A stretch of 64,000 nt of DNA from Pontibacter akesuensis. GTDB taxonomy: Bacteria > Bacteroidota > Bacteroidia > Cytophagales > Hymenobacteraceae. Position 1 is the stretch's first letter, and each line of letters begins with the position of its first letter. Below are positions 6,112 through 31,854 of the stretch, one piece after another. The notes under the pieces are model-generated. The model saw nothing but the letters and a program-made list of their open reading frames with translations, had not been told where the DNA came from and ran no database searches. The stretch spans positions 1-64,000 of the forward strand of contig NZ_CP014767.1 in assembly GCF_001611675.1 (NCBI RefSeq), given 5' to 3'. The position numbers and the translations under genes were made by a program.

Positions 6112-6230
6112 ATTGCTCCTGCTTGCCTATGCTTGGTTCTGCTCGCCCGTTCTTGCTCTTGCCCCGGAAATAAAGGGTTAAATGAGACGAATTGGAAAAG
6201 GGCTTATCATAAGATTTGTTACAGGCCGTT
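6112..6230 (-). repeat. Dispersed intergenic repeat, full copy
   Basis: Read on the minus strand it holds two modules. The first is AACGGCCTGTAACAA followed by TTATGATAAG, a pyrimidine stretch and AATTCGTCTCATTTAA. The second is a TTTCCGGGGCAAGAGC start followed by a 10-bp periodic run of CAAG/CGAG units (AGCAAGAAC, GGGCGAGCAG, AACCAAGCAT, AGGCAAGCAG). Related copies are at 12238, 16597, 22127, 31264 and 43986. It sits directly downstream of the chimeric gene 6265-6489. It fills the gap between that gene and the Crp-family regulator. Confidence 0.65.
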
Positions 6231-6264
6231 CACTCGGGCTTGGTGTTTCTAGCGCGACAAGCGC

Positions 6265-6489
6265 CTACTCGAAGGTGACCCTGATCCGGACCCGCTCGGC
6301 GTCTAGGGCCTTGGCGGGCACCACGCTCACCCGGTATCGGTGTGGACGCCCGGGGAACAGCCCTAAGACGGCGGCGAAGGCCTTCCTGAGCTCCGGGACG
6401 ATTAGCTGCCGCCCCGACAGCTCCACCACCAGCACCCCCTGCGCCGTGGCGTAGTCCAGGCGGCAGACTTGGTCCTCGTAGACAAGCAT
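6265..6489 (-). CDS. Chimeric small protein: STAS-like N-terminus with H-NOX-like C-terminus
   Basis: 74 aa. The first half, MLVYEDQVCRLDYATAQGVL, follows the opening of the STAS-like family in this window (MIIYHNSIITLDYNPATDIL in the gene at 2158). The last 22 residues, RVSVVPAKALDAERVRIRVT plus FE, are nearly identical to the last 22 of the H-NOX gene at 21489 (RVSVVPATALNAERVQLKVT plus FE). The H-NOX haem residues (His106, YxSxR) are absent, so it cannot bind haem in the usual way. The DNA just after the stop also resembles the H-NOX 3' flank, which points to recombination. It starts two codons after the stop of the upstream gene 6493-6726. Confidence 0.6.
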   Translation of the reverse strand: MLVYEDQVCRLDYATAQGVLVVELSGRQLIVPELRKAFAAVLGLFPGRPHRYRVSVVPAKALDAERVRIRVTFE

Positions 6490-6492
6490 AGG

Positions 6493-6726
6493 CTACACGG
6501 CCAGGTAGGTTTGCCTTAGGCTGGCGACGCCCGCGGCGTCTATCTCCTCGCCCGCGCCGCACCGCGCGGTCAGCTCGGCCACCAGCAGCGGGTCCGACAC
6601 GTACAAGCGCTACATGTAGAGGCCGCCAAGGAAGAAGCGGCAGTACAGGCGGTCCGTGCTGACCAGTGTCAGCACGATCAGGTCGCAGGCATTGAGCAGG
6701 CTCAGGAATTCCCTTAGCTCGTTCAT
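6493..6726 (-). pseudogene. Small hypothetical gene interrupted by an in-frame amber codon
   Basis: From the ATG at 6726 the frame runs 38 codons (MNELREFLSLLNACDLIVLT ... LGGLYM) to a TAG at 6612-6610, then stays open for another 38 codons (RLYVSDPLLVAELTARCGAG ... LRQTYLAV) to a TAG at 6495-6493, just before the ATG of the chimeric gene. The two halves are equally long and similar in composition, so a single CAG-to-TAG type change in a 77-codon gene is the simplest reading. No homologue recognised. Readthrough or a sequencing error are alternatives. Confidence 0.5.
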
Positions 6727-7003
6727 GTGAGAAGGGGTTTGGTGAGAGGGTGCAAATCTAACGCTTTTTCGGATACGGAATCCGGCTAACCGGGGATTCA
6801 AGCATGGCGCCTAAATGCAACCACCCATGCCCCTGCAGCCTTTTCGGCGCGCGATCGTATACAGCAGCACGTTTTCCCACGCGTGCGGGGCACGCGTGGG
6901 ATTGTGTTGTTTAGGAAGGGGAGCGGCCGCCCGGAGCAGGGACGCCCAGGCGGCCGCTCCCTTGCTTCCGACCTTCGGTTCCCTGGCTTCAGACAAGAAA
7001 AAC

Positions 7004-7249
7004 ATGGCAGATACAAGTCCCCGCAACAACGGGTGTTCAACAGAGTGCTACGCGGCCGTGCGCGAGGGCGGGCACGGGCTCATCAGCGGAAGGCTCCACC
7101 ACCGGGTACTCCACGACCTGCGGAACCCCTGGGTGCGGCGGACGCTGGAGCGGGGCTCCGACCAGGTAGTGGCCTCCTTCGGGACGCGCGAGGAGTTGGA
7201 GCGGTGGCTGGCCGCCGTGCCCGAGCAAAGGCGGAAGGTTGTGACTTAG
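7004..7249 (+). CDS. Small conserved hypothetical protein, family B copy 1
   Basis: 81 aa from the ATG at 7004 (MADTSPRNNGCSTECYAAV). Upstream in-frame codons exist but encode low-complexity sequence that the paralogue does not share. The paralogue at 19209 shares the core xSTxCYAAVxEGxHGxIxGR, then LHDLRNPWVRRTL, DQVVAxF and ELExWLA, which is strong evidence that both are real genes. The family has no recognisable catalytic motif; its WL ending recalls the STAS-like family. It is followed 19 nt later by a 53-aa membrane microprotein gene on the same strand, so they are probably co-expressed. Function unknown. Confidence 0.7.
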   Translation: MADTSPRNNGCSTECYAAVREGGHGLISGRLHHRVLHDLRNPWVRRTLERGSDQVVASFGTREELERWLAAVPEQRRKVVT

Positions 7250-7268
7250 GAGATCAAATGGAGCGAAG

Positions 7269-7430
7269 ATGGTAGTTAAAGCGCTTTTAGTGGCGGTGCT
7301 TGCCCTGGTGATCGGGTGCGCCGTTTACGCCGTTACCGCGGCATACAGGGAAAGGAGGAGGCTGATCGAGTCCCTGCGGCAGAACCGAAGGTCCAGGAAA
7401 GAGGACTACTACCCCGGCACGCCCGAGTGA
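7269..7430 (+). CDS. 53-aa single-TM microprotein, family C copy 1
   Basis: The product begins MVVKALLVAVLALVIGCAVY, one hydrophobic helix, followed by AYRERRRLIESLRQ and ending RKEDYYPGTPE. Copies at 11679-11876 and 16666-16830 share the AYREKKRL/AYRERRRL juxtamembrane segment, the SLxQNxRSRxED motif and the YPxxPE tail, so the reading frame is supported by comparison despite its size. The helix with a positively charged flank predicts an inner-membrane protein with a cytoplasmic tail (N-out/C-in). It lies 19 nt after the family B gene. Function unknown. Confidence 0.65.
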   Translation: MVVKALLVAVLALVIGCAVYAVTAAYRERRRLIESLRQNRRSRKEDYYPGTPE

Positions 7431-7677
7431 CCCGCAAACCCTGCCCGAGAGGGCCATGGCAGCGGGCAGTCGACGCTAGTTGTCACGACCTTTGGCGATA
7501 CACAGGCCCTTGCCCAGGTGTTGCCGCCTGTTGCCTCTAACCCGGGAAAATCAAGCCTTGTGCGGTTCTGCCCCTGTGCTGGCCAGGGGCCGTGCTCGGG
7601 GAAAAAATATTCGGAGTGAATGCGGAAAGGGGTTACCCCCCCTTGGGAGCTGCCTCCGGCCTGCCAGTATAAAGCGA

Positions 7678-7702
7678 AAGGCCCCTCGGGGAGAGGGGCC
7701 TT
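7678..7702 (+). terminator. Hairpin after the microprotein gene, possible terminator
   Basis: A perfect 10-bp GC-rich stem (7678-7687 with 7693-7702) and a 5-nt loop. No T-run follows, so termination is only suggested. It may end the 7004-7430 unit. Confidence 0.4.
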
Positions 7703-7815
7703 CCATCATGAAAAGCGTTCTTTTCATTTTCTTAGTCATGCCTTTTTACGCCATTCCCGGCAGCGGGGTTGTGGAATGCCCAAACAAAGCGACTTCCCAA
7801 TCCGCGTCTCGGAAA

Positions 7816-7854
7816 GACAGGGGCCGGGCCGCGAAACGCGGCCCGGCCCCTGTC
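7816..7854 (-). terminator. Strong terminator-like hairpin downstream of 7905-8228
   Basis: An 18-bp perfect stem, almost all G and C, with a 3-nt loop. On the minus strand it is followed by CTTTCC. It lies about 50 nt after the stop of the minus-strand family D gene. Confidence 0.6.
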
Positions 7855-7904
7855 ACACTTCTACATAAACTAAAACTTGGGAAAGCTATAGAGGGGTATA
7901 CGCG

Positions 7905-8228
7905 TTACTCCGGCACTTCGATATAGTTTTTGAGCTGGTTGAAGAAAGCGCTGTTGTTGCGGGCGGACTCCACGTCCGCGCACAGGTTGTAGTGCAGGTG
8001 GCGCGTAACGTAGCAGGTGGCGCCCAGCCTGGCCAGGTAGGCGCACAGGGCCTCCAGCTTTTGCAGGTGGCCTTCTTCCACATCAACCTCAGTTTGCGTC
8101 CTGTCCAGGTAAACGGAAACAAGGTTCAGCTGGGGGCAGGCTGCTTTGTTTTTGGCGATGGCATCGCGCAGCTTCGACACGATGATGCCGTACTTCATCT
8201 TCAGGTCTTCTTCTTCAAGGGCAGTCAT
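7905..8228 (-). CDS. Conserved hypothetical protein, family D copy 1
   Basis: 107 aa starting MTALEEEDLKMKYGIIVSKL. Its paralogue at 17580-17924 is alike over the full length, with shared blocks KYGIIxxKLRxAxAKNKA, PQLNLxSVYLDRT, LCAYLARLG and CYVTRHLHxNLCADVExAR. The mix of an N-terminal helix, a strand ending in YLDR and a His/Cys-containing segment (TRHLHYNLCAD) suggests a small alpha/beta protein. I do not recognise the family. Conservation of the TRHLHxN segment makes a metal or ligand site possible but unproven. It is a single-gene minus-strand unit ending in a strong hairpin. Confidence 0.72.
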   Translation of the reverse strand: MTALEEEDLKMKYGIIVSKLRDAIAKNKAACPQLNLVSVYLDRTQTEVDVEEGHLQKLEALCAYLARLGATCYVTRHLHYNLCADVESARNNSAFFNQLKNYIEVPE

Positions 8229-8838
8229 ATCTTTATGCGTAAGGGCTGTGCTATCCTAACGCCACACGGCAAGATGCCGAAACAAAGGGCATCACTCGCA
8301 CCCATGGAAAGCACATATACAGCAGGGTTGTGCAGGTTGTAGGGTATATACGGGCTGCTAAAGGCGATGTTTAATACACAAGGAAGATGGAATAGGAATT
8401 ACGGCAGACTCCTTTGGCAAAGCTGGCAATGCTGCGGATACGCAGCACGGGCTTTCTTCATTCCCGCGACTCTGGAAACTTCCGCTAACCCAGAGGCGCG
8501 CTGCGCTTCTACGATGCGCCAACCAATGTGACCAGCTTTTACCGGATTCACCAGAAAGCCGCTGTCCGCAAAGTCAGTGGCTTTTTTAATCTATGCCTCC
8601 TGTGCTGGTTGCAAAACTTGACTTAATCGCAAGGCCCGGTTGTGCTGGATCATTTAAATACTTATGTTTGACCCTGTTTACATATAAAATACGATATATA
8701 TAAACAAAAGTTGATTATGCTTCAACAGTGCAGTCAAACTGATAACCGAATTGCATTTTTGTGATAGTTTCACCTATGTGCCGGATCCAAGCAAGCATTA
8801 AGAAAGGGAAGTAACCCAATAATAACCAAATCGAATAG
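8229..8838. other. Intergenic region, nothing recognisable
   Basis: No credible gene on either strand. The right third (8640-8715) is AT-rich and may include promoters. The middle (8400-8600) is GC-richer and could be a decayed gene, but I could not identify one. Confidence 0.45.
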
Positions 8839-11689: not shown

Positions 11690-11876
11690 GTTCTATCCTC
11701 CTGACCCCTGCCAGGATAAGTCCGAGATCAACAGACGAATCGGCATCGATGTGCTCGGGTATGTCCTATACTCTTATGTCATAGCCTACAGAGAAAAGAA
11801 AAGACTGAAGGCTCAGTCCCTTCGGCAGAATCAAAGGTCCAGGGAGGAAGACTACTACCCCAGCAGACCTGAGTAG
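11679..11876 (+). CDS. Membrane microprotein, family C copy 2
   Basis: 65 aa. The C-terminal part, AYREKKRLKAQSLRQNQRSR plus EEDYYPSRPE, matches copies 1 and 3. The N-terminal part differs: a hydrophilic extension (MPSTFYPPDPCQDKSEINRR) comes before a shorter, Tyr-rich hydrophobic stretch (IGIDVLGYVLYSYVIAY). The conserved tail argues that the C-terminal segment is the functional element and that the membrane part has diverged or been replaced. An internal start is not available near the helix. It overlaps the start of the doubtful minus-strand gene. Confidence 0.55.
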   Translation: MPSTFYPPDPCQDKSEINRRIGIDVLGYVLYSYVIAYREKKRLKAQSLRQNQRSREEDYYPSRPE

Positions 11877-13271
11877 CCTGCAAGCTATTCCGGGGGTAAA
11901 GCAGCAGGTACTCGCCGTTGAAGCGGCCCTTCCATCCGTGCGCAAGGATTAGTGCAAATAAAGTGTGCGTGCCACCCCACTACAAGGGGCACTGACGGAA
12001 GCCGGCTCTCGAAGCCGGTCTACCGCTTTTCACGGAGGGCACAGGCGGCAGCGTGTGATTTCTAGGGGGTTGCCAAAGCTGTTGCTACTTGTTTCCTGGC
12101 TTATTGAAAGGGGGGCATGTATCGGAAATAGGGTTTTTATGAGCCGAATATGGGAGTGACTCGTTCTGAAAGGTGTTGACCGATTTGTTGTTAATCCTTC
12201 TAAAGTTGACTACTACAGGTTTTGACGGTCAACCCAGGTACTGCTTCCGCTTGCCCATACTTGCTTTTGTCCCGGAAATATAGGGATTCTTGAGGCTTAG
12301 GTAGACCACACAACTACTTTAAATAAACTAAAATCGATTCCAAGTGAAAATAGAACTTAGGGAGTGCGTTTGGTGCTTCCGTCTTCATCATCAGGCAGAA
12401 AGACGCATACACTCATTGCGCAGACTCCTGCTTTGATTACCTTTGACGCATTAAGTTTGTTTTCATAACTTGGAAAGAGCAGGGGTTATACTTCTGCTTT
12501 TTTTATTGATATTGACTCCCGCTCCTATGCTGAATTAACCCCTTCCAAACGTATCGCGGCCCCAGTGCAAGTATCTAGCTTCAGGCTGTACATGAATCGT
12601 TCATCAGTGGGTGTGCTTGTTTTAGGCGCGTTGCTCTGCGTTGCTGGCCTATTCCAAACCCAAGACACCCGAAAAACAAACCACAACCAAACAGGGACCA
12701 AACCGCCACCGCCGCTTTTCGGCGTCCCAAGAAAGGGCGGTTAAATGAGCTTAGAATAGCCAAACCCGGAAGTAACTGCAATGCACAGTTGAGGGGCCAC
12801 GGATTCTCATTTTGCCGTCTCGCAATTCAAGTCCTGAATTTGTTTCTTGAGATGAGTTGGTGAGACAATAGAAAGATGATATTTAAAAGATATAAGATTA
12901 GCTACTTGTTTAAGTACTGTACTCAACTTAAGGATAAGCTATAAAAATTATTATATATTGATTGTCTTATAATTTACCTTATGTTAAGTAGTAGGGCGCT
13001 AAGCCACTTGCCCTCTAGACACTGCGTTATGAGGCAAAGTGTTTTATCCGCCATTTAACCGACATAAGAGGCTTTTATCCGACATGCCAAAACTAATGCC
13101 TTTTCCCTCTTTACTGTCAGGCTTGTAAAATTGGCAGCACTCTGTCAGTATAGCAGCTATTTGCTGCCTAAGAAGCACGGGGCTTAGTACCCTTTTACCT
13201 TTCCCAAAGCTTAATATAATAAAGACTAACTCATAGTTAATCACGACACTAAGCTTTACCAATTGCGAACG
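11877..13271. other. Long gene-poor interval
   Basis: About 1.4 kb without a credible gene. It contains a dispersed-repeat copy (12238-12292, minus), a short hairpin followed by seven T residues (AGCAG...CTGCTTTTTTT at about 12477-12507) and an AT-rich stretch (12860-13000). An open frame at 12581-12781 on the minus strand is low-complexity and rejected. Confidence 0.5.
12238..12292 (-). repeat. Dispersed intergenic repeat, second-module copy
   Basis: On the minus strand it reads TTTCCGGGACAAAAGCAAG, then TATGGGCAAGCGGAAGCAGT and a tail ACCTGGGTTGACCGTCAAAA that is also found at 44040-44070. The 10-bp spacing of the GCAAG units is kept. Confidence 0.6.
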
Positions 13272-15116: not shown

Positions 15117-15347
15117 ACTGTTAATCAAACTATAGAATCAAATAGATAAGGAACCGCACAAGCCTTGCACAGCCGCTTTTCCTAATCTCTCTCCATGCGT
15201 AGGCTGATTTGACCCTCAACGGAAGCTAACGAATCTGCTTTTACCTTGAGCCTCTAGCGCTGGCTGCTCCTACTCTCTGAGTCTTCTCCCTTTTATGATT
15301 ACTTGGAGATACGCTATAAAAAAAGCCGCTCTACTGTATCACCAACT

Positions 15348-15386
15348 CGTCTCACAAATCAAAATAATGGTTTGATTTGTGAGACG
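15348..15386. repeat. 16-bp perfect inverted repeat containing CGTCTCA
   Basis: Arms CGTCTCACAAATCAAA and its complement with a 7-nt loop ATAATGG. The preceding CAACT makes CAACTCGTCTCA, the core of the first module of the dispersed repeat, so this is a related or derived element. Confidence 0.65.
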
Positions 15387-15449: not shown

Positions 15450-16596
15450 TGGCTGTTGCACAACTATTGATAGTATTACCTTCTCTGATCCTGAGCTTTC
15501 TAAAAAGCTCTCAAGTCTCAGCTTTGTCTGTCTCAGTTGAAGAAAAGCGGTGAAAATAAAAAGGAACTGCCTGTAGAGCTCTGTTGCCGCTCTTTTTCCA
15601 GTGCCGTGGCTACACTGATTGACTTTGATGGTTTGTACTTCATGTACTTTTTGAGGTTGAAGGCAACGGCGGCCATAAGCATGACCTTATGCGCCCCTGA
15701 TTTTCCTAGTACACCGATTCTGCGCAGGCCGTAATGCTGTACAAGGGTCCCGAAGACCGGGTCCACGGTGCTCTGACGAAGCTTTTTCATGCGCTTGCCG
15801 CGCCTGCTGTTCTGCCTGGCATAGGCCCGCTGGTACTGCTCGTCATAGGCCGTGCGGGTGATCTTGCGGCACCGGGCTTTGGGGGCGCAGGTGGGTTTGG
15901 ACGCGCACTGCCTGCAGTCCGCCGGGGCCGCCCAGTAGTTCTTCAGCAGCCTGCCGTCCGCAGTGCGGTCAAAGCCCTTGAAAGGATGCGGCTTGCCCAT
16001 GGGGCACATGTAGCGGTCGCTCTCCTTGTCATAGGGAAAGGCCTCTATCTCGGGCTTGTACTTGCCGAACACGGGGATCCAGCCTGTGATGCCCTGCTGC
16101 TCGAGCATGTGGTAGTTGGAGCCGTTGGAGTAGCCGGCATCGGCCAGCAGCTCCTGCATGAGCAGCGCATTCTCCTTTAGCCTACCTTGCACCTGCATCA
16201 CCAGGGAAGGCAGGTGCTGGCTGTCCCGGCCGTCGCCAAAGTCCGCCCGCACATGAGAAATAACACCCTTGGCCGTGTCCACGGCCATGCTGCAGTGCTC
16301 GATGAGCTTTCTGTCCGAGATAATGTTCTCCAAGTAGCCTACCAGGCAGAGCTTGAAGAACACCACCGGGTCGATGCTCTGCTGGCCGCAACGCCCGTAG
16401 AATTGCCCCGTCAGTTCGTAGAGAAAGTTTAGGTCCAGCTGCTGCTTCAGTTGCCTATAGAAGCTGTGCTCCGGCACGTGTGCCGACAGCGAGAAGTGCA
16501 GCTCCTTCTCATCCGTGAAAGTTTTCCTGCCCTGCATAACACCAAAGGTTTTACCTATATGCTTACGGCTGGATTCGGACAGTTGTGCAACAGCCA
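15450..16596 (-). mobile_element. IS1182-type insertion sequence, internally deleted
   Basis: About 1147 bp bounded by perfect 16-bp terminal inverted repeats TGGCTGTTGCACAACT (15450-15465) and its complement (16581-16596). It encodes one transposase frame that lacks the central part of the DDE domain, so the copy is probably non-autonomous. I see no target duplication. Its right end abuts a dispersed repeat. The 267-bp MITE-like relic at 3131 has the same ends. Confidence 0.8.
15533..16537 (-). CDS. IS1182-family transposase, internal in-frame deletion
   Basis: 334 aa from the ATG at 16537 (MQGRKTFTDEKELHFSLSAH). The N-terminal DUF772-like domain is intact (DLNFLYELTGQFYGRCGQQS ... SIDPVVFFKLCLVGYLENII, ending IEHCSM). 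Full-length relatives then continue with the RLDILYFLGYDID region and the first catalytic Asp (QAIDSAPVKANAS); here the sequence jumps directly to AVDTAKGVISHVRADFGDGR. The C-terminal cysteine-rich insert (DCRQCASKPTC) and the YGLRRIGVLGKSGAHKVML end are present. About 150 residues and at least one catalytic acid are missing, so catalysis is unlikely. The frame has stayed open. Confidence 0.8.
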   Translation of the reverse strand: MQGRKTFTDEKELHFSLSAHVPEHSFYRQLKQQLDLNFLYELTGQFYGRCGQQSIDPVVFFKLCLVGYLENIISDRKLIEHCSMAVDTAKGVISHVRADFGDGRDSQHLPSLVMQVQGRLKENALLMQELLADAGYSNGSNYHMLEQQGITGWIPVFGKYKPEIEAFPYDKESDRYMCPMGKPHPFKGFDRTADGRLLKNYWAAPADCRQCASKPTCAPKARCRKITRTAYDEQYQRAYARQNSRRGKRMKKLRQSTVDPVFGTLVQHYGLRRIGVLGKSGAHKVMLMAAVAFNLKKYMKYKPSKSISVATALEKERQQSSTGSSFLFSPLFFN

Positions 16597-16655
16597 CCCT
16601 CCTTTTCCGGGATAAGAGCAAGCACTGGCAAGCATGGGCAAGCAGGAGCTTTCAC
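16597..16655 (+). repeat. Dispersed intergenic repeat, second-module copy abutting the IS
   Basis: CCCTCCTTTTCCGGGATAAG followed by AGCAAGCACTGGCAAGCATG and GGCAAGCAGGAGC, with 10-bp periodicity. The IS right end falls exactly at its start, suggesting the IS inserted into, or next to, a repeat copy whose first module is no longer adjacent. Confidence 0.65.
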
Positions 16656-16665
16656 AGTTTGCCGG

Positions 16666-16830
16666 TCACTCGGGGGTGCCGGGGTAGAAGTCCTCTTTCC
16701 TTGACCTTTGATTCTGCTGTAGGGATTGCGCCGCTAGCCTTCTCCTTTCCCTGTAGGCCATAATACCGGCGTAAATGACGCACCCAACCACTGAGGCAAG
16801 TACTGCTACTAAAAGTGCTTTTATCATCAT
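16666..16830 (-). CDS. 54-aa single-TM microprotein, family C copy 3
   Basis: From the ATG at 16830 (or the next codon, also ATG) the product reads MMIKALLVAVLASVVGCVIY, then AGIMAYRERRRLAAQSLQQN and RSRKEDFYPGTPE. It is the closest relative of copy 1: the KALLVAVLA helix, GC, AYRERRRL and KEDxYPGTPE are all shared. A longer frame in another register on the same strand is a shadow. The helix and cytoplasmic basic tail predict an inner-membrane protein. Here it is on the minus strand, unlike the other copies. No function known. Confidence 0.65.
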   Translation of the reverse strand: MMIKALLVAVLASVVGCVIYAGIMAYRERRRLAAQSLQQNQRSRKEDFYPGTPE

Positions 16831-16929
16831 CTTGGCTTAACTTAATATTAGTCACAATCTCTGTCGGTGCCCGGCTCCCCCATCCGTTGTCTCCCCACTG
16901 GCGTGAGCAGCGAGCTATTCTTCATTCAT

Positions 16930-17349: not shown

Positions 17350-17579
17350 TAAGGGACAACGGGAGCGTCCGCTTCCGTACCCCGCTACGACTGGTCCACA
17401 GCCGTACCGCACGATAACGACAGCTATGCAAAAGTCAGCTCCCAAACAGCGCTAATACAGCAAACACTTCGCCTTTTCAAGCGTATATGCTCTACTGCCT
17501 GATAAAGTTATGAAGGACGAGGGGGCCCGGCGGAGCCGTTGGGGATCGGTTGCGGGCGCGCCCCTTCCCGAGTCAGGGC

Positions 17580-17924
17580 ATGAGCGAAGCACCCGAAGAC
17601 ATGACAGCCCTTGAAGACGAACAACTGAAGATAAAGTACGGCATCATCATAGCCAAGCTGCGCGCCGCCGTCGCCAAAAACAAAGCCCGCTTCCCGCAGC
17701 TGAACCTCATCTCCGTTTACCTGGACAGGACGGGGGCGGAGGCAGATGCGGCCGGGGGGCACCTGCAGCGGCTCGAGGACCTGTGCGCCTACCTCGCCCG
17801 GCTCGGCTCCTCCTGCTACGTCACCCGGCACCTGCACCACAACCTGTGCGCCGACGTGGAGGCGGCAAGGAGCAACAGCGTGTTCTTCAACACCAGGAAG
17901 AACTATATCTCGCTGCCCAAGTAA
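17580..17924 (+). CDS. Conserved hypothetical protein, family D copy 2
   Basis: 114 aa from the ATG at 17580 (MSEAPEDMTALEDEQLKIKY); the ATG at 17601 (MTALEDEQ) would match the start of copy 1 at 7905-8228 exactly and is equally possible. Similarity to copy 1 covers the whole length: KYGIIIAKLRAAVAKNKARF, PQLNLISVYLDRT, LCAYLARLGSSCYVTRHLHH and NLCADVEAARSN. The most conserved part is CYVTRHLHxNLCADVE, which makes it the best candidate for a functional site. It precedes a STAS-like paralogue on the same strand, with a gap of 409 nt, so separate transcripts are likely. Confidence 0.72.
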   Translation: MSEAPEDMTALEDEQLKIKYGIIIAKLRAAVAKNKARFPQLNLISVYLDRTGAEADAAGGHLQRLEDLCAYLARLGSSCYVTRHLHHNLCADVEAARSNSVFFNTRKNYISLPK

Positions 17925-18333
17925 AAGGAGAGCAGAAGCCCCTGACGGTGCTTCCGTATGGTTAATTGCTTTGTAAGGAGAGCCGGGGGCGCGCCGGTGC
18001 CAACCTGGCTCTCTTTCTTTGCCCACCGGCCCCCACTTCCGCCGTTCGGCGCCTGCCCCACCACAGGGAGCCCGCGGCTTCCTGCCGGCGTCGACTTCAA
18101 AGTTCTGCAAGGTGGGCTGCTTAAGTCAAGAGTGGCCGGTGGCGGCCCTTTTCCTTTGCCGCTCCCCCAGCGCAGCGACCGTTCCAGGGCAAGCACCAAG
18201 CCATGAGAGCAGACTAGGTATAAATACTTAAAAGAGAGAGCCAGTACGGATTCCATCGAAAAAAGTTGGTGACCGGAATCTTTTTCTTGGTTTGGCGTGT
18301 CTGTTAGACAGGAATAAGAAGACCAGCAGAAGA

Positions 18334-18729
18334 ATGATCATCCCCAGCCCAGTTATCAGGCTTGACTACAACCCTGCCACGGACGTTCTGTCGGTGGAGT
18401 GGCCCGACGTGCGCGAGCACTCCCTGGGCGAGGCCGAGCACCTGCTTGATGTCGTCGTGCAGGCCGTCAGGCTCTACGACGTGCGGTACCTGCTGACAGA
18501 CACCAGAAAGGGGGTCGTGGACGTGCCGGAGCAGCGCTACAGGGAGCTGCTGCTTCGGTTCACCAGGAGCCTTGCCGCGACCCGGGTCCGGAAGCTGGCA
18601 AGGGTCGTGACCGTGGACACCCTGCGGGAAGGCCCCATCAGCCAGGTGACGCGGGAGTCCGCCCTTGCGGTGCCGATCCGGAGCTTCTACAGCACCGAGG
18701 AGGCCCTAGGCTGGCTCACCTCGAAGTAA
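18334..18729 (+). CDS. SpoIIAA/STAS-like small protein, dispersed copy 4
   Basis: 131 aa from the ATG at 18334 (MIIPSPVIRLDYNPATDVLS), the start that matches the tandem copies at 1287-2562; a longer upstream frame lacks similarity. It shares the helix LGEAEHLLDVVVQAV, the strand VRYLLTDTRKG in place of KKLLLDAS, the basic patch TRVRKLARVVT and the terminal FYSTEEALGWLTS. Thr replaces Ser in the LLxD loop. It is GC-richer than the tandem copies. It stands between a family D and a family B gene in the reshuffled block. Role unknown; a protein- or lipid-binding STAS/SEC14-like fold is inferred. Confidence 0.72.
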   Translation: MIIPSPVIRLDYNPATDVLSVEWPDVREHSLGEAEHLLDVVVQAVRLYDVRYLLTDTRKGVVDVPEQRYRELLLRFTRSLAATRVRKLARVVTVDTLREGPISQVTRESALAVPIRSFYSTEEALGWLTSK

Positions 18730-19208
18730 GATCCCGTTCCCACCCCAAACGCCGCCGGCAAAAGCCAAAGGGGAAAGCAAGGAAGGACCGTCCGTTTGCG
18801 CCCAAAGCAGACGGCAACTCCCCTGCCCCTTAAGCTGCATGCCGTAAATCATCTCACCTTACGGGGGCATGCAGGATTATAAACGGCGGACCGCTCGGCA
18901 TGGTTGGAGAAGGGATGGGGCACGTGAGCCGCGGATCCAGGCGTGCAATCAAGCCGTTCCCAGCGGAGGGCCCCGGAAAACTGTTTTTGTATCTTGCCAG
19001 CAAGGCCGGCGACCGCCCCCGCTCATCGAAAGCGCAGCCCCCCAGCCTGCCTGCGCTTTGCGCGCTGTTCTACTTATCAATTGAAAAGACGTTGGAGGTG
19101 TGCCCGCCACGGGAACCGGAGCGGTGCGTGCGCTTCAACCTGCCTCCCTTGCCCACCGCAACCATGGCTGGCGGCGCGACGTTTAGCCAAACTCAACCAA
19201 GCAACTAC
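18730..19208. other. Intergenic region
   Basis: No credible gene. Overlapping open frames here are low-complexity GC-rich shadows. It probably contains the promoter of the family B gene. Confidence 0.45.
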
Positions 19209-19523
19209 ATGGCAAAGATCATCCCCTGCGACATCGGTCCCTCGACGGATTGCTACGCGGCCGTCAGCGAGGGCGAGCACGGCTTTATCTGCGGCAGGCT
19301 TCACGGCTGGAGACTGCACGACCTGAGGAACCCCTGGGTGCGCCGGACCCTGGACCGGAACCCCGACCAGGTGGTGGCGGCGTTTGAGACGCGCCAGGAG
19401 CTGGAGCAGTGGCTGGCCACGGTGCACGCGGGCCCGAGCCCCGGCAAGGGGGCGCCACCCGCCTCCCTGCCTGCCCGGCACGCTGCCAAGGGCATGGCGC
19501 CCGCTACCTTGGGCCTGTCCTGA
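19209..19523 (+). CDS. Small conserved hypothetical protein, family B copy 2
   Basis: 104 aa from the ATG at 19209 (MAKIIPCDIGPSTDCYAAVS). The longer upstream frame is rejected because the paralogue at 7004 supports only this start. Shared blocks are PSTDCYAAVSEGEHG, GRLHGWRLHDLRNPWVRRTL, DQVVAAFETRQELEQWLA. The last 30 residues (PSPGKGAPPASLPARHAAKG) are a Pro/Ala-rich tail absent from copy 1, perhaps produced by loss of the original stop. Family and function are unknown. Confidence 0.68.
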   Translation: MAKIIPCDIGPSTDCYAAVSEGEHGFICGRLHGWRLHDLRNPWVRRTLDRNPDQVVAAFETRQELEQWLATVHAGPSPGKGAPPASLPARHAAKGMAPATLGLS

Positions 19524-19610
19524 CAACTTGCCGCCACCTGAGCCGGGCCGCACATGCGGAAAGGCGAGCCCCGTGTTTGCCTTTTAGGGCAAACTGTTGT
19601 ACCTTATCAA

Positions 19611-19641
19611 GGCAATCCCCGCGACCAAAGCGGGGATTGCC
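19611..19641 (+). terminator. Terminator-like hairpin after family B copy 2
   Basis: A perfect 12-bp stem (19611-19622 with 19630-19641), loop GACCAAA. It is about 90 nt after the stop at 19523. No strong T-run. Confidence 0.5.
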
Positions 19642-19697
19642 GTTGCCCGACACCGGTAGTTGGTTGATTTGCTTTGTGCAACGAAGGTGAAAACGCA

Positions 19698-19740
19698 GAA
19701 AGCCAAGGTGGGTGGTGCCCTCCTTGGCTTTCGTTTTCCC
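19698..19740 (+). terminator. Second hairpin with short T-run
   Basis: GAAAGCCAAGG pairs with CCTTGGCTTTC around a 13-nt loop and is followed by GTTTTCCC. It lies within the 370-nt gap between the genes at 19209 and 19894, which otherwise holds nothing recognisable. Confidence 0.55.
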
Positions 19741-19893
19741 CACCCACCGCAGGAACTCCCAGTCCCCAGGCCGCGGCGAGCGGCCGGTACCGGATGCTCG
19801 CCCAGCACATCAACGCGCAAAGGCTTGCCGGGGCACGGGCAAAGACAAAGCAGGCACGAAGAACTTCCAGGGGAGCCGGTGACCCTATCGCTG

Positions 19894-20067
19894 ATGGACG
19901 CGGGCTTTATCACCGTGGTGCTGGACCTGAACAGCTGCCATGTGGAGGTGCGGTGGCTGCGGCAAGTAAGCGCCGCCGAGTGCGGGCACCCGCTGCGGCT
20001 GGTTCTGCGCATCGCAAGGGAGATGCAGGCCGAGCTAAGGAAGACGCAGGCGCTTGCGGGGGATTGA
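19894..20067 (+). CDS. Small hypothetical protein
   Basis: 57 aa from the ATG at 19894 (MDAGFITVVLDLNSCHVEVR), continuing WLRQVSAAECGHPLRLVLRI and AREMQAELRKTQALAGD. The strand ITVVLDLNSCHVEVRWL followed by an amphipathic C-terminal helix looks protein-like. A GTG six codons upstream is an alternative start. A longer frame exists but runs through the terminator hairpin. It converges with the minus-strand gene at 20070 with only 2 nt between the stops. No family recognised. Confidence 0.45.
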   Translation: MDAGFITVVLDLNSCHVEVRWLRQVSAAECGHPLRLVLRIAREMQAELRKTQALAGD

Positions 20068-20069
20068 GC

Positions 20070-20336
20070 CTAGGCGGCCTCCAGCTGCGCGGAAGGCTCC
20101 GCGTGGCGCAGGAGCGCGGCGCTTAGGCCCTCGGCCTCGCTCAAGCGGAAGCGCATGACAAAATCCGGGTGCTCGATGCTCCGGTAAAGGAGGGCGTCCG
20201 GGTCGCCGGCGGTGGCCACCCTCCTGAAGCTGTCGGCGAAGTAGTCGGCCGACATGGACTTGGCCACCCCGCCGTCGAGGTAGCGGATCTGCCCACCCCG
20301 CAGCAGGGGCAGGATGCGCTCTTGAAAGTCTTTCAT
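20070..20336 (-). CDS. Small hypothetical protein
   Basis: 88 aa starting MKDFQERILPLLRGGQIRYL. It is a soluble alpha/beta protein with an acidic C-terminal helix (RLSEAEGLSAALLRHAEPSA) and a segment ADYFADSFRRVATAGDPDAL in the middle. In size and position it resembles the interrupted gene at 6493-6726, but direct similarity is weak and I do not claim homology. It converges with the plus-strand gene at 19894. No family recognised; the composition and clean start make it a probable real gene. Confidence 0.55.
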   Translation of the reverse strand: MKDFQERILPLLRGGQIRYLDGGVAKSMSADYFADSFRRVATAGDPDALLYRSIEHPDFVMRFRLSEAEGLSAALLRHAEPSAQLEAA

Positions 20337-20611
20337 CCGTCTTTAGAGTTAGGGGTTGCCGGTACGGGCATATCCCTGGGAAGGCCGGCACGGCTGCGGC
20401 ACTCCCCCGGCTACTGTATGCACAGGGCTTGACCACCCTACTTGTCGCCTGAGGGCCGCGCTCTCAGTGCCTCGCCCCCAGGCTTCTACCCTGCCCACCT
20501 CTACGCCCCGCGCCGGCAAAGGTTCCGGTGCTTTATGGCCCGGGGTCCCAAAGCAAAAAAGCCCCCGCTTGGGCGGAGGCTCTGATGCTTTGGCTAAAAG
20601 TTTGGGCGGTG
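20337..20611. other. Intergenic region with terminator of the downstream minus gene
   Basis: No gene. It contains the terminator at 20551-20580 and the upstream region of the 88-aa gene. Confidence 0.5.
20551..20580 (-). terminator. Rho-independent terminator of the PepSY-like gene
   Basis: On the minus strand GCCTCCGC pairs with GCGGGGGC across a 4-nt loop (one mismatch) and is followed by TTTTTTGC. It is about 30 nt after the stop at 20612. Confidence 0.7.
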
Positions 20612-20959
20612 TTACTTTGCCGATGCGTCGGCGCCCTTCTCGTCTATCCTGATGGAGCCCTGCTGCCCCTGCGCGTTAGTGAGCATCACCTCATACACGG
20701 CCACTGCCCCGGCCTGGCCCTCGGCGGGCGCCACTTTATAAATCTCGCCGACTGTCCAGTCCTTGTAGGTGTCGCTCTTGAGGGCCGCCTTCACAGGCTC
20801 TGGTAGCTGGTCCTGCGTCACCTTCTCCTTTTTCTCCTCCTGGCCCTGGGTCTGCCCCTGCTGGGCGGCGGTCTGCGGAGTGGTGGTCTGTGCGCTTGCC
20901 TCGGTTGCGAATAGGCCCAGCGTTGCGATGGCTGCAGCCAGTACGGTTACTTTCTTCAT
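20612..20959 (-). CDS. Secreted PepSY-like protein
   Basis: 115 aa with a Sec signal peptide (KKVTVLAAAIATLGLFATEA, cleavage after ASA). Residues 25-50 are a Gln/Thr/Lys-rich linker (TTTPQTAAQQGQTQGQEEKK). The C-terminal 65 residues (LPEPVKAALKSDTYKDWTVG ... VYEVMLTNAQGQQGSIRIDE) match the Bacteroidota periplasmic PepSY-like pattern: LPxxVKxAL, then YxxWxV, then a YEVxL strand and a closing xIRIDExG strand. Such proteins are periplasmic and often lie near two-component or stress genes; their role is not established. It is a single-gene unit with its own terminator. Confidence 0.68.
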   Translation of the reverse strand: MKKVTVLAAAIATLGLFATEASAQTTTPQTAAQQGQTQGQEEKKEKVTQDQLPEPVKAALKSDTYKDWTVGEIYKVAPAEGQAGAVAVYEVMLTNAQGQQGSIRIDEKGADASAK

Positions 20960-21488
20960 AGTGCTTGTTCTTTATGGTTTAGGCGGGAACTCTCCCCGCT
21001 TGTGCCTTCCCCTTATGAGAGAACCGTGCCAACTCCGCACAAGACAGACAATAGCTTGCATGTTAGCCGCTTGCATGAAATGGGCCAGACCGGGCACGTG
21101 TGGAGGCAGCGGACCATCTGCGTGCCGCCCGCCACAGACTGGGGACATTCTCCCCCGCCCGGCCCTTCCTGCCGGGTGCCCACCCTTGCCAGGGCCCTGA
21201 AGGAAATTGCACTGTTTTCCCTGCCTTCCGGCAACCACTCTTGCCGTGCATCCGTAAAAAGGAACGGCTAAAAGTTGATGAGTTTCTTTACGGACTTATT
21301 TATAATGGAAAGGCTCCCCAGATGGGGAGCCTTTTTTCGTACACGGTTGGCTGGCGCCGAAGGTGTGGGGCCAACGAGAAAATTGGCTCCGCCTTGCCGG
21401 CGACAGCGCATCCTTTCGTACCTTTCCACAGCCCCGGCCGGACGGGGAGATACTTCAGTTCACAATGCACACATTTACCGAAGACAGC
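20960..21488. other. Leader and intergenic region upstream of the H-NOX gene
   Basis: No credible gene. Several overlapping frames are GC-rich shadows. It contains a strong terminator-like hairpin at 21309-21336 about 150 nt upstream of the H-NOX start, which could be an attenuator or the end of a small RNA. Confidence 0.45.
21309..21336 (+). terminator. Rho-independent terminator upstream of H-NOX gene
   Basis: A perfect 11-bp stem (21309-21319 with 21324-21334), tetraloop AGAT, followed by a T-run (CCTTTTTTCG). No gene on the plus strand precedes it closely, so it may end a short leader or unannotated RNA. Confidence 0.65.
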
Positions 21489-22037
21489 ATGCACGGGTCG
21501 ATCTTCATTTTCCTGAAGCGGTTCGTAGAGAGCAGCAGTGGCTACAGCGCCTGGATCAACCTGCTGGAGAGCGCGGGGCTGCCCCACCGCGCCAGCGCCC
21601 CCTACCGGATGGACGAGGTGTACCCCATCGGCGAGCTCTTTGCCCTCATCTCGGCCGCCGCCCGCGCCGAGGGCACGCCGGAGGCCGACTTCCAGGAGCG
21701 GTTCGGCCGCTTCCTGGTGCCCGACCTGCTGCTGGTCTTCAAGCGCTTCATAGACCCCTCCTGGCGCACGCTCCAGATGCTGCTGCACGTGGGCTCGCAC
21801 ATGCACGGGGGCATCAGGCGTGAGAACGGCAAGACCAACCCGCCCCCGCTGCACGTGACCAGCGTGGGCAGAAACGTGCTCGTCATCGACTACCACTCCA
21901 GGCGCAGGATGGCCGGCTTTGCCGTGGGCATCATCAAGGGGCTAGCCAGCTACTTTGACGAGGGTGATAGGGTGAGCGTGGTGCCAGCCACGGCCCTGAA
22001 CGCCGAGCGGGTCCAGCTCAAGGTGACGTTTGAATAA
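21489..22037 (+). CDS. H-NOX (HNOB) haem nitric-oxide/oxygen-binding protein
   Basis: 182 aa from the ATG at 21489 (MHGSIFIFLKRFVESSSGYS), the usual MxG opening of H-NOX; an ATG eight codons upstream (21465) is possible. The proximal haem ligand is probably His106 (LHVGSHMHGG), followed by NPPPLHV, where relatives have a conserved Pro that flattens the haem. The propionate-binding YxSxR motif is intact as Tyr135-His-Ser137-Arg-Arg139. The C-terminal strand block VPATALNAERVQLKVTFE is shared with the 74-aa chimera at 6265. H-NOX proteins sense NO or O2 and usually sit beside a cyclase, kinase or diguanylate cyclase; none is adjacent here. A cytoplasmic sensor with an unlinked partner is inferred. 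Confidence 0.85.
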   Translation: MHGSIFIFLKRFVESSSGYSAWINLLESAGLPHRASAPYRMDEVYPIGELFALISAAARAEGTPEADFQERFGRFLVPDLLLVFKRFIDPSWRTLQMLLHVGSHMHGGIRRENGKTNPPPLHVTSVGRNVLVIDYHSRRRMAGFAVGIIKGLASYFDEGDRVSVVPATALNAERVQLKVTFE

Positions 22038-22126
22038 GCAGCATGTTGGAAAGCCAGGCAGAGCCGTGGCGAAAGCCACTGATGCTTGGGAAGGCATGGC
22101 GCTTTTTGCGCTAAGAAATCCTAAGC

Positions 22127-22204
22127 CAACGGCCTGTAACAACAATTATGATAAGTCCCTTCCCAACTCGTCTCATTTAACCCTCGTGGCTGTTTTGTGA
22201 GACG
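22127..22204 (+). repeat. Dispersed intergenic repeat, first-module copy
   Basis: AACGGCCTGTAACAACAATT, then ATGATAAGTCCCTTCCCAAC and TCGTCTCATTTAACCCT. It matches the copy at 6112-6230 over about 60 nt and ends in TGAGACG, which pairs with the CGTCTCA (22169-22175, 22198-22204). It lies 90 nt after the H-NOX gene, the same relative position that the other copy has to the chimeric gene. Confidence 0.7.
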
Positions 22205-31042: not shown

Positions 31043-31854
31043 AATTCCTTCATCACAAAAAAGGGATCATCTTACGGCAATAACATCGAACAAAGGAAGG
31101 GGTGAAAGATCGAACAAGCTGATTTGGGGATGTGTTATACAATCTACAACTTTTGCTATGAGGATGAATTACCAGCTACCAACACTGGTAATTGTAATGC
31201 TTTTTCTGCCCTTGTAGACTCCACAACAGTAAAGGACAATCTTTAGAAACTTCATTAGTAGCTTGTTAGCCAATAACAACGATTATGATAAATCCTTTCC
31301 CAATTCGTCTCATCATTCCCTCCTTTTTCCGAGATAAGAGCAACCGAAGGCAACCAGGTGTCTCTCAAATATGAATTGGGCCACCCGAGACTGCAGGGAC
31401 AGCATATACTGGTGGCCACCCCGTTCCACGTTGCTTTCTGTTGCTAATCAGCGGCTGTTGCCTGCACCGGGCACAGTAGGGAAGTTTAGTGATGGCAGAA
31501 CACTTATTTTAGGGCTGAAGGCAAGTTTTGCTGCTGTAAGCATGCCTTTTTATAGTTGGATAATGAAGGATTTACTTAGGAAATTGTGAGCTTTTTCAGG
31601 ACGAGGCAAATTGTTGACATTTACATAAAGCTGCATACAAAACAGCAGAATATGCCTCCCCCTTCTGCTTTTATGAGAGAAATATCCCGCTATAGAAAGT
31701 TAAACGCAGGGCAACCCTCACAAAAAAGTATCAGCAGCGGGTGAAGGCTGACACGCATCATCCCTCTATGGAGAGCAAAGCTTAAAAGATCAATGCTATC
31801 TATGGATAACCGTCATCTCCTGCAAGGTAGATAAATGACAGCGACGCCAACCTT
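31043..31854. other. Gene-poor interval containing a dispersed repeat
   Basis: No credible gene. The dispersed repeat at 31264-31352 is the only recognisable element; the frame at 31371-31589 is not protein-like. Confidence 0.5.
31264..31352 (+). repeat. Dispersed intergenic repeat, full copy
   Basis: TAACAACGATTATGATAAAT, then CCTTTCCCAATTCGTCTCAT and CCCTCCTTTTTCCGAGATAA followed by AGAGCAACCGAAGGCAACC. It has both modules in the same order as the copy at 6112-6230. Confidence 0.65.

Follow-up and report, generated by a model that had tools for sequence, protein, structure and literature searches.

The locus described here lies in a window of 64,000 nucleotides, with which a contig of Pontibacter akesuensis, 116,138 bases long, begins. 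The genome is assembled in two contigs (99.98% complete), of which the other measures 4.71 Mb, and the chimeric open reading frame sits on a Pontibacter accessory replicon. The ORF list of the window contains, at 6265–6489 on the minus strand, an open frame of 74 aa with an ATG start and a TAG stop. This frame, its parts and the features that surround it are as follows, with the basis of each assignment in brackets.

6265–6489, minus strand: chimeric open reading frame, 74 aa, ATG to TAG (ORF list, sequence)
6361–6489, minus strand: residues 1–43, STAS-like N-terminal part, about 41 of 132 family-profile positions (alignments, profiles, tree)
6334–6360, minus strand: residues 44–52, junction stretch assigned to neither parent (codon comparison with H-NOX)
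6268–6333, minus strand: residues 53–74, C-terminal tail of H-NOX, the last hairpin (protein and DNA alignment)
6215–6264, minus strand: flank specific to the H-NOX 3' flank at 22099–22140 (alignment, shuffles)
6113–6214, minus strand: continuation of the flank, part of a dispersed intergenic repeat (genome searches)
6493–6726, minus strand: upX, a small gene with an in-frame TAG inside (sequence, genome search, alignment)
6610–6612, minus strand: the in-frame TAG, codon 39 of upX (sequence and alignment)
6753–6760, minus strand: TAGATTTG, a -7-like box 26 nt ahead of the upX ATG (motif scan)
7004–7249, plus strand: gene Z, copy A, 77% over 222 nt to 19207–19428 (self-comparison)
7905–8228, minus strand: gene Y, copy A, 80% over 316 nt to 17596–17909 (self-comparison)
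17550–17924, plus strand: gene Y, copy B (ORF list, self-comparison)
21489–22037, plus strand: intact H-NOX (HNOB) gene, the nearest relative found of the chimera tail (PF07700, E 5.3e-22; DNA match)
22098–22184, plus strand: H-NOX 3' flank matching the chimera flank (alignment, genome search)

Longer frames, of 90 aa and 110 aa, also overlap this stretch, so that the openness of the 74-aa frame is unremarkable and means little. The third-codon-position GC content of the chimera (0.89) is similar to that of upX, the intact H-NOX gene and the STAS-like gene at 18334. Scanning of the chimera against Pfam yielded no family at E 1, and the NCBIfam scan was likewise empty. The two-part origin put forward in the preliminary description, a STAS-like start joined to an H-NOX tail, was borne out by protein, profile and DNA matches. 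The first profile searches gave E-values of 1.3e-7 for the head and 2.1e-9 for the tail with profiles in which the chimera itself may have been included, and these values are not to be relied on. With profiles made without window sequences, the head was matched at E 6.4e-4; the H-NOX profile matched the tail only (positions 158–178 of 178), at no better than E 0.07, a piece this short being hard to match, so that the case for the tail rests on the DNA. With filters switched off and a limit of E 100, the head alone did not match H-NOX, nor the tail alone STAS. This speaks against the C-terminal block being an ordinary strand pair of the STAS-like family.

The head belongs to a family of proteins of about 134 aa, several of which are encoded in the window (at 1287, 1724, 2158 and 18292). 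The family is weakly SpoIIAA-like, PF11964 being detected in 4 of 13 members scanned with a best E-value of 2.7e-5, and for this reason 'STAS-like' is used as a loose label. Local alignment of the chimera to the window members gave scores of 67 (1724), 49 (2158), 42 (1287) and 41 (18292), which were reached by 0, 0, 1 and 22 per 1000 shuffled chimera sequences, respectively. The support is thus clearest for 1724 and 2158 and smaller for 1287 and 18292. Aligned with H-NOX for control, residues 1–50 of the chimera scored 25, a value reached by 377 of 1000 shuffles. The likeness of the first half to the start of the family, for which 2158 had been named as the example, thus holds, but the closest kin of the head appear to be upX-linked STAS-like genes of other genomes and not the genes at 1287–2559 or 18292. 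The best relative is a STAS-like gene in the same-genus genome G031 (47% over residues 1–43, E 6.7e-6; phmmer E 6.6e-7). A small tree built from heads of 50 residues, and read without support values, places the chimera head among the upX-linked STAS-like genes and away from the ones located ahead of H-NOX. The head scored 31–62 against 14 H-NOX-linked heads and 60–65 against three upX-linked ones, two ranges that touch, and 90 against the head from locus L130. The match to the family ends at profile position 40–41 of 132, and the remainder of the STAS-like domain, with the LD, KxA and final WL blocks conserved in the family alignment, is absent from the chimera. Elsewhere in the window, at 1287–2562, three STAS-like genes lie in a row, and a similar triple is present on the chromosome contig (L134).

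The last 22 residues of the chimera had been called nearly those of the H-NOX at 21489, and 17 of the 22 are indeed identical. At the DNA level, 70 nt match the window H-NOX at 83% (E 1.5e-13 in a whole-genome search), which shows that the C-terminal piece and H-NOX are of common descent. Over the final 23 codons, stop included, the chimera differs from the intact gene at 13 of 69 nt; eight of these changes are silent (one is stop for stop) and five are replacements. This pattern fits descent of the tail from an H-NOX copy that selection would have maintained during much of the time since the two diverged, though the signal may all predate the fusion. In the ten codons preceding these 23, 11 of 30 nt are the same as in H-NOX. 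The invariant residues H106, Y135, S137 and R139 of a 13-sequence H-NOX alignment all precede the retained tail; we take H106 to be the proximal histidine and the other three to form the YxSxR haem motif. The chimera therefore lacks the haem residues, as had been stated from the translation. The suggestion that its product competes with H-NOX or acts as a partner-binding fragment did not find support. HDX-MS work cited in PMC7108781 locates the contact between H-NOX and its kinase on helices A–C and F, none of which is kept in the chimera. Because both the haem residues and these helices are absent, competition with H-NOX is unlikely.

Structure prediction bears on whether the two pieces could form a domain. 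AlphaFold performed poorly on the single chimera sequence (pLDDT 52); an alignment of 16 sequences, in which fragments of both parents were mixed, led to a compact model (mean pLDDT 71). The predicted elements are, in order, strand-strand-helix from the STAS-like part and strand-strand from H-NOX, with low confidence when no alignment is supplied. The C-terminal subdomain of H-NOX has its elements in this same order, strand-strand-helix-strand-strand. The right order of the elements would suit a working mini-protein, in which the STAS-like strand-strand-helix and the H-NOX hairpin make up one small domain; such a product would mimic half of a STAS-like protein or else the C-terminal subdomain of H-NOX, which is free of haem, and modulate either signalling protein. 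We consider this unlikely. The excess of silent over replacement changes in the tail is in its favour, and the spacing GL-8 residues-RVSVVP is the same as in H-NOX, but within that spacing none of the eight residues is shared. The H-NOX/sGC C-terminal parts among the VIA-align rows (6jt0_B, Z 6.9; 1xbn, Z 5.7; 2kii, Z 5.5; 4it2_A, Z 5.3) also speak for it, but unrelated chains reach Z 7.3 and neither parent rises above this background. No STAS chain was present among the 50 rows shown, and Foldseek with the chimera model gave no match at E 0.001. Moreover, the alignment given to the predictor held H-NOX C-terminal fragments, so that the likeness is partly built in, and the single-sequence prediction is poor. 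The kinase-contact helices named in PMC7108781 are absent, the gene in front is broken (see below), and conservation of the chimera was not seen in the other genomes searched. An improbable extension of the same idea is that of a newborn gene: the STAS-like strand-strand-helix would have replaced the equivalent elements of the H-NOX C-terminal subdomain at a matching point, and the product would fold and tune signalling. If so, it would be a 74-aa haem-free subdomain acting on the H-NOX or STAS-like signalling of the strain.

The DNA that follows the stop had been described as aligning with the 3' flank of H-NOX, which is true of part of it. The two flanks share a 93-nt block at 80%; the 61 nt next to the H-NOX stop have no counterpart in the chimera flank. 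The first ~50 nt of the chimera flank are specific, with a score that was reached by 0 of 5000 mononucleotide shuffles and no match besides the H-NOX flank in the fetched loci L055–L202. About half of the aligned stretch, however, from ~6214 downward, is a dispersed repeat of the P. akesuensis genome, which recurs at C1:4004110, C1:3895252, C2:31274 and elsewhere. This intergenic repeat surrounds the motif CCAAYTCGTCTCAT, of which six exact sites and three with one mismatch were counted genome-wide. It was located in the window at 6182–6195, 22163–22176, 31300–31313 and 15342–15355, and outside it at C1:3891855, 3895296 and 4004180; at some sites AGCAAGAGCAAGCA-like repeats come next.

Comparison of the contig with itself identified 6.17–8.23 kb as a reduced copy of 17.6–22.2 kb, for the most part in inverted orientation. 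The pair, at 6170–8233 and 17596–22184 of the window, comprises pieces of Y, Z and H-NOX at 77–83%. The individual identities are 80% for Y, 77% for Z, 83% for the H-NOX tail and 80% for the flank; the Z piece is in direct orientation within the otherwise largely inverted copy, and the frames of Y and Z in the 6.2–8.2 kb copy are still open. The tail of the chimera belongs to this diverged second copy of the Y-Z-H-NOX segment. The duplication of the H-NOX tail with its flank, which the preliminary description had coupled to a fusion with a STAS-like start, can thus be retained, but what was copied is larger than tail and flank and includes Y and Z. The tail has diverged on a par with Y, Z and the flank (77–83%), which counts in favour of a relic. 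A further short repeat was observed at 7262–7439, 11781–11886 and 16657–16837; one copy of this type adjoins what was judged by eye to be a transposase-like ORF (15533–16621).

The small gene upX lies upstream of the chimera on the same strand, and its stop is 3 nt ahead of the chimera ATG. The unnamed family to which it belongs was found in 25 of 119 genomes searched, all of the same genus (41 match rows). Its members are about 77–90 aa long and have a conserved core, YCRFF...LY.DRM..SD (window copy, L175, L176, L186, L191, L192). The TAG at codon 39 falls at an alignment position that is mostly Asp in the relatives, and among the 41 rows stops occur only in the window copy and in a partial copy of G031. 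In the latter genome, the decayed upX adjoins the best STAS-like relative of the chimera. Of the 40 other match rows, 23 were fetched, and in three of these places (L186, L191, L192) a STAS-like gene follows upX at 33–47 bp, measured between profile ends; one weak match (L087) was excluded. Homologues of Y and W are also near upX in L176 and L186, both from genome G024. Ahead of upX, TAGATTTG fits what we take to be the Bacteroidetes -7 box (consensus TAnnTTTG); sites of this kind are not enriched in the window (30, versus a mean of 38 after shuffling). The premature TAG might in principle be a base error, and the chimera an assembly or sequencing artefact. With 13 differences over 69 nt, the tail is not the result of a faulty assembly join with the intact H-NOX, and the genome is nearly complete in its two contigs. 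We attach hardly any weight to an artefact.

The two-part form was not found in other genomes among those searched. A match over the whole length at E < 0.001 was obtained in the own genome only (197 genomes searched, the own genome included), and all relatives in this set, with matches down to about E 0.8, correspond to one half only. The collections genome_contigs and viral_contigs contained no relative of the chimera, in scans that both reach close relatives only, and plasmids gave no match to its DNA (in distant mode) or protein. In 51 fetched stretches plus the window, the chimera was the single ORF matched by both profiles, which could include the chimera. With profiles rebuilt for 80 sources no ORF was matched by both, but the chimera head itself dropped out, showing that this test is too insensitive for other such short fusions. 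Two candidates for a further chimera were rejected. One, in G017:C23, is a 73-aa frame matching residues 43–74 at E 0.015 that by eye resembles neither family; the other, in G196:C205, matches residues 3–74 at 35% with an internal stop (E 0.49) and was taken as chance.

STAS-like and H-NOX genes do occur side by side. A total of 43 full-length H-NOX genes were retrieved from the genus, and 15 of them are immediately preceded, on the same strand, by a STAS-like gene, with 67–143 bp between profile ends. In a named set that overlaps these 43 genes, the same arrangement was present at 17 of 40 H-NOX loci. Pairs outside Pontibacter were seen in Rufibacter glacialis (L216), R. hautae (L228) and Sabulibacter ruber (L225); by the same rule, 5 of 7 Rufibacter loci have no STAS-like gene upstream of H-NOX. 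The loci with pairs include L086, L088, L090, L092, L101, L104, L106, L107, L109, L110, L112, L121, L216, L225 and L228. On the strength of this gene order, the STAS-like protein is a candidate partner of H-NOX. A limited literature search did not find reports of a STAS-like/H-NOX gene pair, of Pontibacter H-NOX or of a SpoIIAA-like protein together with H-NOX. The review PMC8738867 describes histidine kinases and cyclic-di-GMP enzymes beside the hnox genes of facultative anaerobes; the STAS-like neighbour is distinct from both, and STAS is absent from the neighbour families in one of the figure legends of that review.

The gene pair offers a simple route to the chimera, namely an internal deletion within one of the STAS-like/H-NOX operons that are common in the genus. 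One deletion would yield the exact order of the two pieces, the arrangement exists in 15 of 43 cases and in Rufibacter and Sabulibacter, and one of the H-NOX genes most like that of the window (67% identity; L121, which is the same as L205) has a STAS-like gene in front. However, the head groups with upX-linked STAS-like genes rather than with H-NOX-linked ones, judging from the small tree and from scores whose ranges touch. Also, L205 is the only one of the eight nearest named H-NOX loci (L203–L209 and L237, 62–70% to the window H-NOX) with a STAS-like gene in front, and a upX-STAS-H-NOX triple on one strand was not seen in the loci examined (80-source set). Such a deletion is, in our estimation, a doubtful origin for the chimera.

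Overall, two truncated parents, a broken upX, a rearranged segmental copy and a single occurrence point to a relic of rearrangement and deletion: the 74-aa frame is probably that, and probably functionless. Both parentages, the copied pieces and the stop in upX are observed; from them we infer the order of events and a deletion as the joining step. The segment with Y, Z and H-NOX was copied, largely inverted, on the accessory replicon, and in the copy at 6.2–8.2 kb a upX-STAS gene pair would have ended up ahead of the second H-NOX. A deletion would then have removed the sequence from about codon 43 of the STAS-like gene through to the last ~22–30 codons of H-NOX, leaving an open frame by chance, and a stop likewise disrupted the preceding gene, upX. 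Should a product exist, it would most likely be a functionless fragment. The base rates agree with this, decay of such genes being frequent: H-NOX carries an in-frame TGA in 3 of the 28 H-NOX-bearing genomes of the genus (G030, G031, G041), and the STAS partner is split or reduced in 3 of 15 STAS/H-NOX pairs. Against a relic are the in-frame junction and the open frame, the 8 silent versus 5 replacement changes in the tail and the third-position GC of 0.89, the still open frames of Y and Z, the -7-like box ahead of upX and the compact model with pLDDT 71. As a relic, the frame chiefly documents the copying, inversion and breakage of small signalling genes on an accessory replicon; the recurrent STAS-like/H-NOX neighbourhood in Pontibacter, Rufibacter and Sabulibacter is more useful than the relic itself.

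Compared with the known families, residues 1–43 of the chimera follow the start of the STAS-like/SpoIIAA-like proteins (PF11964), but about 90 of the 132 profile positions are missing. Residues 53–74 correspond to the last hairpin of H-NOX/HNOB (PF07700), with kinship to the gene at 21489 at the DNA level, but about 155 of the 178 profile positions, including H106, Y135, S137 and R139, are missing. Relics of chimeric genes that arose by deletion or rearrangement are known as a general kind. The chimera described here differs from them in that its frame stays open and has a plausible order of secondary-structure elements; it resembles them in the joining of two truncated parents, the broken neighbouring gene and the single occurrence.
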